A stretch of DNA of 64,000 bases from Methanosarcina sp. DH2 (GTDB lineage: Archaea > Halobacteriota > Methanosarcinia > Methanosarcinales > Methanosarcinaceae): positions 377,509 through 441,508 of the forward strand of contig NZ_WJBI01000001.1 in assembly GCF_020804225.1 (NCBI RefSeq), written 5' to 3'. Shown in pieces: positions 1,401 through 4,236 of this stretch (positions are counted from its first letter, which is position 1; each line of letters opens with the position of its first letter). A program made the translations under genes and the position numbers. The notes below the pieces were generated by a model, which worked only from the letters and a program-made list of their open reading frames with translations, made no database searches and was not told the DNA's origin.

Positions 1401-1480
1401 GATTTAAGAAGCTTAAATTTTTATATTTTTCCTGATTCCTTTATTGATTTGTCAAAAATCCTCAAGATTTTGACTTTCAA

Positions 1481-1552
1481 CCGGAATAAATCTCCAGATC
1501 GAATTAACTAAGCTCAGGAGGAACATCATCATATATGGTAGATTTATTCCGG
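1481..1552. repeat. 13-bp perfect inverted repeat, 46-bp spacing
   Basis: CCGGAATAAATCT at 1481-1493 is the exact reverse complement of 1540-1552. A smaller hairpin (GTCAAAA...TTTTGAC, 1451-1474) lies just before it. AGGAGG occurs in the loop at 1516-1521. It could be a structured RNA leader or the end of a decayed mobile element; the sequence does not decide. Confidence 0.45.
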
Positions 1553-1682
1553 CTGAAGTTCTTACTTTTTCACTTTCCCTTCCAAACAATTTCTCTCAGA
1601 TTGGATCACCTGTTGAGCAGGTACTTTGAGACTGTACTATTTCATTGTTCAAAGACCGATCAGTAAACATCTAAACAGGCAC

Positions 1683-1781
1683 TTACCTGTTAAGGACTCC
1701 ATAGCCGCCAATCTGTATTATTTTTAACTGTATTATCTGTATATAGAAAGTTATCTTTGTATAGCTCAAGTAGAAAAACAT
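1683..1781 (-). CDS. small ORF, 32 aa, same leader as the 2.7-3.4 kb array
   Basis: The ATG (1779-1781) is preceded on the minus strand by GTGGAGGGAA with exactly five bases between, the same leader and spacing found at four other ORFs in this spacer. The peptide begins MFFYLSYTKITFYIQ and is rich in aromatic and Ile residues; the first half resembles the 25-residue array peptides, the C-terminal half (GGYGVLNR) does not. A full GGAGG at optimal spacing in otherwise gene-free DNA is the main evidence for translation. It lies ~1 kb from the array and may be a diverged member. Confidence 0.45.
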   Translation of the reverse strand: MFFYLSYTKITFYIQIIQLKIIQIGGYGVLNR

Positions 1782-2650
1782 TATACTTCCCTCCACTCCT
1801 TAATGCTGTTCTTTCTCGTTCAAAGCCATTTTTCCTTAGAAGCTGATCTCAAACCTATCTTATTCTGAAATTATAGTTTTTTCATGATCATTTTTCATTA
1901 TCCGAAACTTGATTGGTTCTCTAAGCTCCTGGTTCAAAGGAACAAATTTGTTTTGAGATTAGCTCTTAACTTACTTCGGGTTGCTCTTAAACTGACATTG
2001 AGTTCAATTTTTTAATATTTCAGTTTATACAACTTCTTTTCGCCAACCCCCTCTCGCGCTTTTATACTCCCAGAACTTTATATTGGAACTATACTAGAAA
2101 CCAAATAATTGCAGAGACATCCAGCTAAAAAACTTAAAGTTTCTAAGGTTTTTAAATTCGATATCTAGGATCTTTGTATGCAGCGAATGAATATATTTAG
2201 ACGCCATCTTCTTTTTGAGGTTGCAAGTTCCACTTTTAATCATTGAAGGAGTATCAATATACAGGTGTATTACGAATTTATATATAATGTAAAGAACAAG
2301 TACTCCTTACAAATAGTAATCTTTAAGTATTTTGATACAGAATATTTCATTAAGTCAAGCAACTGTGCTGTCTATGCGTTCTGTTTTTTTCATTAAATCC
2401 TTTAATTCCTTTAGCATAGTCTCTGTCAGGGAAATATTACCTCTAAAAAATATCCTGTTCCTCTCTGAAATTAATGTTTTTTATGTAATCTCAAATTTGT
2501 GACGGTTACTTCTCTTATATTTCGAAGAGTATATTAAAACAGTAAAAGCCATCTCATAAATTAAAAAAATGCAGTTAAATAAGGCAAATATTTATAATAT
2601 ATGGAAAATGTAAAAAAGTTATACTTAAATACTTACTTCGTAAAGATAAA

Positions 2651-2671
2651 GTTGCCTGAAAAGCAGGCAAC
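2651..2671 (-). terminator. hairpin after the small-ORF array
   Basis: GTTGCCTG and CAGGCAAC form a perfect 8-bp stem with a 5-base loop. Read on the minus strand it follows the 2714-2791 ORF by ~43 bases and is followed by TTTATCTTT, so it may end the array transcript. It could equally be part of an RNA with its own role. Confidence 0.4.
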
Positions 2672-2713
2672 TTAATATGTATATTTTGATTTTTCGTTAG
2701 TATTGCTGCTTAA

Positions 2714-2791
2714 TTAGAAGCAGTAAAACAGCTTGAGGAATGTTGACTCGTAGGTTACTTTGACAGTTTTATAGATAAGGCTGAAGTACAT
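2714..2791 (-). CDS. small ORF of the tandem array, copy 1 (25 aa)
   Basis: The leader GTGGAGGGAA (minus strand of 2797-2806) ends five bases before ATG at 2789-2791. The 25-residue product begins MYFSLIYKTVKVTYES and ends LKLFYCF: aromatic-rich with spaced Lys, possibly amphipathic or membrane-active. It belongs to a set of three frames of identical length in which the ORF carries no insertions or deletions although the flanks do, and several third-position changes are silent. No known family is recognised. Similar gene plans in bacteria (Ldr, Ibs/Sib) are type I toxins, but that parallel is only architectural. Confidence 0.55.
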   Translation of the reverse strand: MYFSLIYKTVKVTYESTFLKLFYCF

Positions 2792-2915
2792 ATCAGTTCC
2801 CTCCACTCTTTTCCTGTATTTTGTTCATACCCCGTTATGCACCTGTCTTCTGCAATGAGCTTATCAGGATCATATACGCTCCCTGTAGCCCAGCAGTTTC
2901 CTCCTTACAGCTCAA

Positions 2916-2993
2916 TTAGAAGCAGTAAACTAACTTGAGGAAAGTTGACTCATAGCTATATGAGATAGTTTTATAGATAAGGCTGAAGTACAT
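2916..2993 (-). CDS. small ORF of the tandem array, copy 2 (25 aa)
   Basis: It has the same leader and five-base spacing as copy 1. The product begins MYFSLIYKTISYSYES and ends LKLVYCF. Compared with copy 1 there are about five amino-acid changes, mostly conservative (V/I, T/S), and silent changes in Thr, Tyr and Leu codons. The frame and the length of 25 residues are kept although the flanking leader differs by several indels. This is what purifying selection on a peptide would look like, but three copies are too few for a test. Confidence 0.55.
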   Translation of the reverse strand: MYFSLIYKTISYSYESTFLKLVYCF

Positions 2994-3126
2994 ATCAGTT
3001 CCCTCCACTCTTTTCCTGTATTTTGTTCGTCCCCCGTTATACACCCGTCTTCTGCAATCGAGCTTATCAGAGTATCATAAATATAAATGCTCCCTGTAGC
3101 CCGGCAGTTTCCTCTTTACAGCTCAA

Positions 3127-3204
3127 TTAGAAGCTGTAAAACAGCTTGAGGAATGTTGACTCGTAGGTTACTTTGACAGTTTTATAGATAAGGCTGAAGT
3201 ACAT
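3127..3204 (-). CDS. small ORF of the tandem array, copy 3 (25 aa)
   Basis: The product is almost identical to copy 1: only the penultimate Cys is Ser (TGC to AGC). The Shine-Dalgarno sequence and spacing are the same. Its upstream leader departs from the other units beyond ~3222, so its promoter must differ or transcription must come from the 3284-3358 ORF upstream. There is a short AGGC/GCCT hairpin at 3260-3272 between the two. Confidence 0.55.
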   Translation of the reverse strand: MYFSLIYKTVKVTYESTFLKLFYSF

Positions 3205-3283
3205 ATCAGTTCCCTCCACTCTATATTTTTGTTCACTTTTCACGGCTAACTATATTTCCAGGCTTTCGGCCTCAGTAGCCTAT

Positions 3284-3358
3284 TTAGAATAACTTAATTG
3301 CAAAGTTGATATTAGTCAGGAATGCAAAGAACTGGCTAAAGTTGAATGTCAGGATCAT
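3284..3358 (-). CDS. small ORF with the array leader, diverged (24 aa)
   Basis: ATG at 3356-3358 follows GTGGAGGGAA with five bases between. The peptide begins MILTFNFSQFFAFLTN and ends in KLF: hydrophobic, Phe-rich, nearly the length of copies 1-3, but without close sequence identity. A possible 45-residue basic ORF (3361-3498, minus, GTG start, no clear ribosome site) ends with its TAA three bases from this ORF's start and runs through its Shine-Dalgarno sequence, so the two could be translationally coupled. No function is known. Confidence 0.45.
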   Translation of the reverse strand: MILTFNFSQFFAFLTNINFAIKLF

Positions 3359-3360
3359 GT

Positions 3361-3498
3361 TTATTCCCTCCACATTTCATTGGAATTTATATTCTTTCCA
3401 CACGGTGCTTGTGTACATGCCTTTGAGTACACTTTTCTGAAACTTTTGTTTGCAGCCTTCTTTACCAAGCCTCCAAAGCTTGTTACTCTTTCAGCCAC
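3361..3498 (-). CDS. possible 45-aa basic ORF upstream of the last array member
   Basis: A GTG directly after a stop codon opens a frame of 45 codons with the Lys/Arg-rich stretch GGLVKKAANKSFRKVYSK. Its stop lies inside the leader of the 3284-3358 ORF. There is no Shine-Dalgarno sequence before the GTG; GGAGG occurs within the frame, four bases before a TTG (codon 11), which would give a 35-residue product. The equivalent region of the other units is not open. I list it only because of the overlap. Confidence 0.2.
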   Translation of the reverse strand: MAERVTSFGGLVKKAANKSFRKVYSKACTQAPCGKNINSNEMWRE

Positions 3499-4236
3499 TT
3501 AGAAAGATTATTAATGGGAATTTCTTTTCTTCTTGGGATCTACAGTTTAAGATTCTAACCGGCAGTGGCTATATCTAGCTATATTTATCAGATTATATAA
3601 ATTGGACAGAATTACATCTCCTTACGAATTATAGTTCTTAATTATTTAGAGGTAAATACCTGTATGACGGAATATATATTTTTAATTCGGTAGATGCCTA
3701 ATGTTTCACTCCGGTTTTAACCTCTATCTAAATGTTTGGATGCTTGCCACGGTTTGATGAATAACTTCTTCGAACAGATTAGTTCAGAGGCTATGTTTTT
3801 CCTATTTTTTCTATTACGTTTATCAGCCGATACATGAGAGAAAGCAGTTTAAAATAAAAAAGTCAGTTCTTAGGATAAAAGCATAAATTTTCTGCTAAAG
3901 CTTTGTGTTTCCTAAAATAATCTCCAACTTTGGTTTATACTGTCCAAATTATGCTTATTTTGTGCATGACAATTTTAGGTAAAAATCGTGTCTGAAGCTT
4001 AAGGGTCTATTCAAGAGTCCAAAACAGTGTAGCTAGTGCTCGCTTTCAAAGTTAAGTTTTAAAAGCCTGCACAGGTAACTATAAATCGACATCAATTGAA
4101 CTTGAAATTCTATAATTAAGAAATAATTTAGAGAGCATAGGTTAAAATGTATTTTCTTACATAAGGGATAAAAACAATTGAGATTATTCAATGTAATTTC
4201 TTCTGATCATGTCTCAGTAAAAATGGGGAGGGGGAT

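Follow-up and report, generated by a model that had tools for sequence, protein, structure and literature searches.

What do five tiny open reading frames (ORFs) in an apparently gene-free spacer encode, and what kind of system do they form? This question is raised by positions 1683 to 3358 of the 64,000-nucleotide stretch of Methanosarcina sp. DH2 DNA analysed here (the window), where five ORFs on the minus strand follow the same ribosome-binding leader. The first-pass annotation had taken them for a peptide family. That they are real genes was upheld, but the analysis showed that they belong to three co-regulated peptide types, designated A, B and C, which that annotation had missed and which lie in the transcription order B, A, A, A, C. 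These ORFs are almost certainly coding, they very likely constitute a co-regulated cassette, and coding and co-regulation are both strongly supported. On balance, we favour a self-contained cassette in which three micro-peptide families, probably associated with the membrane, are co-regulated and A is arrayed for dosage. In most species of Methanosarcina, a major genus of methane producers, the cassette lies at a single syntenic site. Gene finders pass over ORFs of 24-44 codons, and for this reason a conserved cassette of up to 11 genes has been overlooked.

Tiny ORFs in the window and their relatives in the genus

The pattern GTGGAGGGAA-N5-ATG has five exact sites on the minus strand of the window, and a search of the whole 4.6-Mb genome returned only these five, all in the studied region. 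A reversed control pattern gave no match in the genome, and shuffled controls in which two mismatches were allowed gave a mean of 1.6 matches and never reached 6. The corresponding ORFs have 32, 25, 25, 25 and 24 codons. The three 25-codon ORFs lie 202 and 211 bp apart within a tandem repeat, and the two linkers between these A copies (124 and 133 nt) differ by indels while ORF length is unchanged. The first-pass annotation had described the five ORFs, their codon lengths and the leader-N5-ATG arrangement, all of which matched exactly, as well as a tandem repeat of about 205 bp, with which the spacings, linker indels and constant ORF length agree. The genes and their Shine-Dalgarno blocks are as follows.

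1683..1781, minus strand: C-type peptide gene, 32 codons, MFFYLSYTKITFYIQIIQLKIIQIGGYGVLNR (C profile E=6.0e-20)
1779..1796, minus strand: Shine-Dalgarno block and start of C, exact match
2714..2791, minus strand: A-type peptide gene, third copy, MYFSLIYKTVKVTYESTFLKLFYCF (A profile E=7.8e-12; Shine-Dalgarno block at 2789-2806)
2916..2993, minus strand: A-type peptide gene, second copy, MYFSLIYKTISYSYESTFLKLVYCF (A profile E=3.1e-10; Shine-Dalgarno block at 2991-3008)
3127..3204, minus strand: A-type peptide gene, first in the transcript, MYFSLIYKTVKVTYESTFLKLFYSF (A profile E=7.8e-11; Shine-Dalgarno block at 3202-3219)
3284..3358, minus strand: B-type peptide gene, 24 codons, MILTFNFSQFFAFLTNINFAIKLF (B profile E=2.8e-8)
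3356..3373, minus strand: Shine-Dalgarno block and start of B, exact match

Beyond the ORFs, the cassette reaches a promoter at about 3634 on its upstream side and a hairpin at about 1477 on its downstream side.

The exact 18-base GTGGAGGGAA-N5-ATG pattern was found in 13 of the 31 genomes of the genus, its copies mostly clustered. The C profile gave matches in 24 of 112 genomes of the family, 23 of which are Methanosarcina and one of which is a weak match with an internal stop; C is single-copy in 23 of the 31 Methanosarcina genomes (best E=7.6e-22). The A profile matched in 23 of 186 genomes of the order (20 Methanosarcina, the other three matches being weak and partial) and the B profile in 12 of the 112 family genomes. 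The C match of genome G025 was weak (E=0.0098) and scored well with the refined profile, the alignment of which includes G025 itself. With the refined profiles, the examined loci yielded 95 copies of A (25-28 amino acids), 29 of B (24-32 amino acids) and 23 of C (32-44 amino acids), and GGAGG stands upstream of the start in 103 of these 147 copies.

The order within the cassette is near-fixed: one to three B, one to seven A and then C, on one strand, with few exceptions. A and C share a strand, with A ahead, in 22 of the 23 C-bearing loci, the exception being G012, in which C and the B-A part are divergent. Apart from G025, where no B was found, B lies ahead of A, and in G010 the two alternate. 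By eye, the start pattern M-F-F-x-x-x-Y-[ST]-x-[IV] is common to A and C, which may be distant paralogues.

The family is under purifying selection. A profile search that reads through stops found no internal stop in the A matches; this search is unbiased, whereas a stop count from codon simulation is biased, as the copies were preselected as open frames. The dN/dS ratio was 0.38 for C, 0.57 between and 0.48 within genomes for A, and 0.52 for B. In simulations on disjoint pairs, in which substitutions were placed at random and the transition count was kept (2000 runs), 195 amino-acid changes were expected for A and 50 for C, compared to 148 and 31 observed, and none of the 2000 simulations was as low. 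The first-pass annotation had named stops or frameshifts in relatives as the sign of a spurious family and had proposed a dN/dS comparison over many copies. The family withstood the first of these checks, as the A matches contained no stops. Ratios of 0.38-0.57 showed that silent changes are favoured. The peptide family is strongly supported by its conservation across the genus, by purifying selection and by the lack of stops.

Two probable transcription units and a repeated RNA element

The following signals, together with the genes listed above, make up the B-A part of the cassette.

3609..3634, minus strand: promoter-upstream element of the B-A operon, CTATAATTCGTAAGGAGATGTAATTC, one mismatch from CTATNATTTGTAAGGA
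3593..3601, minus strand: TATA box TTTATATAA of the B-A operon, read from the window sequence
2991..3112, minus strand: intercistronic RNA element (hairpin and GUAUAACGGGGGACGAACAA, then the Shine-Dalgarno sequence) before the second A (covariance model R1, 46.5 bits, E=2.2e-8)
2789..2872, minus strand: the same kind of intercistronic element ahead of the third A (41 bits and E=4.9e-7 with covariance model R1)
2642..2673, minus strand: terminator-like hairpin with T-run closing the B-A operon (AAGTTGCCTG-CTTTT-CAGGCAACTTTATCTTT), which folds as a 10-bp hairpin

A genus-wide search for CTATNATTTGTAAGGA placed all exact matches at the cassette locus. Because the exact TATA box stands before the first B in 19 of 22 loci (shuffled mean 1.8) and in none of 61 A-A linkers, a single operon most likely comprises both B and A. 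A near-identical GTTGCCTG..CAGGCAAC follows the last A in loci L042 and L127 and in several further genomes.

The promoter signals also bear on the suggestion of the first-pass annotation that the peptides may be toxin-like, perhaps with antisense RNAs from the plus strand. In a type I reading, each tiny ORF would encode a membrane toxin curbed by such an RNA. Type I toxin-antitoxin systems are defined by a toxic protein together with an antisense RNA (PMC8309996). The cassette ORFs are small, hydrophobic and tandem-duplicated, with strong Shine-Dalgarno sequences and an interface-active composition, and they share with the enterobacterial Ldr and Ibs/Sib systems the tandem tiny ORFs, the strong ribosome-binding sites and, to some degree, the hydrophobicity of the products. 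However, an antisense scan covering the promoter (TATA) sequence found the exact box at none of the 95 A copies, where shuffled sequence would give 2.5, and no excess when one mismatch was allowed, compared to the 19 of 22 loci with the sense promoter before B. The linkers of the two largest arrays, of 67-69 nt, offer scant room for a conserved second promoter. C is single-copy and syntenic across the genus, unlike a mobile addiction module, and no such Methanosarcina system was found in the literature. Unlike Ldr and Ibs/Sib, the cassette is archaeal, syntenic and vertically inherited, distributes three peptide types over two transcription units in an almost constant order, with no antisense promoter found, and carries a structured element on the sense strand at most A copies. 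We consider the toxin explanation very unlikely, and the antisense RNAs envisaged with it were not supported.

The C unit has signals of its own.

2276..2317, minus strand: promoter of C, with the upstream element ACTATTTGTAAGGAGTA and TTATATATAAATT, both kept with small variation in the C leaders of 14 genomes
2043..2255, minus strand: C leader, with 5' arm GATACTCC (2248-2255), its potential pairing partner GGGAGTAT (2064-2071) and then GGGGGTTGG (2043-2051)
1477..1556, minus strand: long hairpin 3' of C (GCCGGAATAAATC...GATTTATTCCGG), with arms at 1541-1553 and 1480-1492 and a fold z-score of -3.85

The C promoter lies about 500 nt upstream of C, and CTATNATTTGTAAGGAG or a close variant is common to the B-A and C promoters. 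As read by eye from the leader sequences, GATACTCC and GGGAGTAT can form a long-range pairing. All 13 distinct matches of the motif GAGTATA..GGGGGTTG in the examined loci precede a tiny ORF, window C included. A wider regulon of this motif was rejected, as most of the extra genus-wide matches that were opened fall within long ORFs and reflect chance. The hairpin downstream of C, which was also found in L042 and L127, is the probable 3' end or terminator of the transcript. The inverted repeat of the C leader was considered as a dispersed element; this was not supported, the tested 16-mer occurring once in the genome. Separately, a 287-nt A-A linker of G011 (L038:9362-9648) has as an insertion an inverted repeat similar to that of the C leader, which may be a hairpin element capable of moving.

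In the A-A linkers, a hairpin GGUYUCUGCA...UGCAGAARRCC with a conserved bulge is followed by GGUAUAACGGGGRAYGAACAA and then by the Shine-Dalgarno sequence, and the hairpin with GUAUAACGG stands ahead of most A cistrons after the first. The covariance model gave 83 matches at E up to 1, before most A copies, and in whole genomes, two weak matches aside, it returned only the cassette loci and a second locus of related peptides. A first automatic alignment of the RNA yielded no consensus structure, and it was trimmed to the core. In an independent MAFFT alignment, 88% of cells pair, compared to 27-57% when the alignment is slid, and four pairs are changed on both sides. In the model-fitted alignment, which leans towards the structure, double changes occur in 15 of 15 pairs, with 118 cells versus 27 in shuffles. 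In place of this hairpin, the large G008 and G023 arrays have one that spans the preceding stop codon, and GUAUAACGG is kept. The first-pass annotation had seen the ORF family but neither these RNA elements nor the promoter element. No Rfam family matches the intercistronic or leader RNA elements in the loci scanned. Like the structured leaders in Rfam, the element combines a conserved hairpin with an invariant single-stranded motif just upstream of the start codon; unlike them, it recurs ahead of most cistrons in a tandem array.

Given such an element, it may be asked whether the structured RNAs are the functional products and the ORFs incidental, or translated sensors. The conserved hairpin with GUAUAACGG and the structured leaders would fit a regulatory RNA locus, and small ORFs are present on many small RNAs of Methanosarcina mazei (PMC11456600). 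However, selection acts at the codon level on the peptides, amino-acid patterns are kept while the DNA differs, the leaders have no long same-strand ORF close downstream to control, and arrays with short linkers replace or lose the hairpins and keep the ORFs. An RNA-only locus was rejected on the codon-level selection, and a regulatory RNA locus in the wider sense appears highly improbable.

Peptide properties and possible roles

The mean hydropathy (GRAVY) of the peptides is 0.5 for A, 1.1 for B and 0.5 for C. Aromatic residues make up 22-34%, Phe and Tyr being abundant, and interface-partition sums of -4.5 to -7.5 kcal/mol point to a preference for the membrane interface. The mean net charge is +0.5 for A, -0.8 for B and +3.3 for C, and no signal sequence is recognisable in the A, B or C peptides. 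AlphaFold predicted a helix in C at residues 2-24 (23 residues; mean pLDDT 79.5, up to about 90), and the confidence for B was too low to be informative. The peptides probably sit in or on the membrane. Profiles of Pfam, NCBIfam, PHROGs and PADLOC gave no significant match to them, solved structures included no credible relative, and literature searches on peptide strings and described systems returned nothing relevant.

In the favoured cassette, a first transcript would start at the TATA promoter with its dedicated upstream element and run through the B cistrons (one to three) and the A cistrons (up to seven) to the terminator, and a second, from a promoter with the same upstream element, would encode a single C peptide behind a long, structured leader. 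Beyond the first A cistron, most would use their own hairpin with GUAUAACGG and a strong Shine-Dalgarno sequence, and translation may therefore initiate independently at each of them, or the mRNA may be processed. If the peptides are translated in vivo, the tandem copies would increase the amount of A compared with B and C, which would explain the arrays. We infer action at the membrane, where A, B and C would work together as an associated assembly with A as the major component, although such a joint assembly is somewhat doubtful.

Several observations weigh against this picture. A is only moderately hydrophobic (GRAVY 0.5) and contains Lys and Glu, and no helical amphipathic moment exceeds that of shuffled sequence, so that membrane insertion is uncertain. 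Taken by itself, the coding evidence for B is weak, 32 of 2000 simulations being as low. The two RNA elements in the window have the same fold energy as shuffles (z about 0), and the RNA structure is drawn from covariation mainly in relatives, the larger alignment being model-fitted. Joint action of A, B and C is read from their co-location and shared promoter only.

An ABC operon of the MacB/FtsX type adjoins the cassette in 22 of 23 loci, and an ABC-2 exporter (DrrA/ABC-2 type) lies near many. These neighbours could export, or confer resistance to, secreted leaderless antimicrobial or lytic peptides. Several related leaderless peptides of 24-44 amino acids per operon give a layout like that of multi-peptide leaderless bacteriocins (PMC6131525), which likewise have several related leaderless peptides of 20-45 amino acids on one polycistronic mRNA; for the cassette, ABC exporters lie nearby in most genomes. 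However, in G012 the cassette has been relocated together with its upstream element (one mismatch), the ABC operon stays behind without it and no ABC exporter gene was identified beside the relocated cassette, so the exporter link is not obligatory. Furthermore, A and B are near-neutral or acidic and only C is cationic, and vertical, genus-wide conservation at one locus is unusual for bacteriocins. A bacteriocin-like role is quite improbable. The separation in G012 also ruled out the ABC transporter as an obligate partner. A mobile origin was rejected as well, C having given nothing in a plasmid search and a viral-contig scan.

Alternatively, the peptides might serve a large membrane enzyme of Methanosarcina as small subunits or as modulators, with arrays matching enzyme abundance. 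The Mtr complex of M. mazei is bound by small stand-alone proteins (PMC12774963, PMC13370731), the cassette family is genus-restricted, and C resembles a single membrane-length helix. However, the gene neighbourhood indicates no partner, and C gave no match in roughly one in four of the searched genomes, including some that are nearly complete. We regard this role as unlikely. The M. mazei small proteins reported from ribosome profiling (Ribo-seq) and peptidomics (PMC11456600), such as sP36, MtrR and MtrI, resemble the cassette peptides in being encoded by short stand-alone intergenic ORFs, several with membrane association. Unlike the cassette peptides, MtrR has 49 amino acids and no transmembrane segment, and sP36 is hydrophilic and broadly distributed. 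No tandem array family is mentioned where the main text of that paper was searched; single members may stand in its supplementary ORF tables.

The cassette is still best read as a self-contained micro-peptide system. Because it unites a micro-peptide family with a promoter element of its own and a structured RNA that recurs, it is a small and genetically tractable model in which to study the regulation of tandem cistrons in archaea and the roles of very small membrane-associated proteins.

A second peptide locus and other observations

A second locus, which many of these genomes have downstream of the valyl-tRNA synthetase gene, encodes A-like, Gly/Cys/Tyr/Trp-rich and Phe-rich peptides. The same leader motif is present on several of its leaders and the same RNA element on some. 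Tentatively, the families at the two loci with their shared leader motifs may represent a new archaeal micro-peptide system, in which the RNA element would control or process each cistron and the peptides would build a Methanosarcina-specific membrane or surface structure.

The Gly/Cys/Trp/Tyr-rich mini-proteins downstream of the valyl-tRNA synthetase gene (30-54 amino acids, e.g. MCGWFGGCGWGGGWGWRRCWRRCGGWYGWGGGCGC) are tandem or single, and some have the C leader motif. They were located as follows.

L138:9474-9860 and L139:7064-7293 (locus 2 of G000 and G001): Gly/Cys/Trp/Tyr-rich mini-proteins
L033:6344 and L034:2072: Gly/Cys/Trp/Tyr-rich mini-proteins

Their composition suggests a metal-binding, structural or condensate-forming role. 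In the second locus of G011 (L263:5688-5874), a tandem pair, MFDQFFINFLCQYFNQYFNF and MFDQFFINFLCQYFDQYFNFW, stands in place of the usual A-like peptides.

Around the cassette itself, a fragment of an IS4/IS5-type transposase (DUF4096) at 375-641 of the window, on the minus strand, separates the cassette from the gene that usually follows it downstream. In G030, L137:2207-2306 is a strong match to the pyrrolysine insertion element PYLIS_5, at a distance of about 6 kb from the cassette. Finally, G005 has a tandem pair of ORFs of about 40 amino acids with strong Shine-Dalgarno sequences at L034:6822-7323 (MALIDMPIDIGIANQF... and MAFIYIPININILNQF...), possibly a further family.
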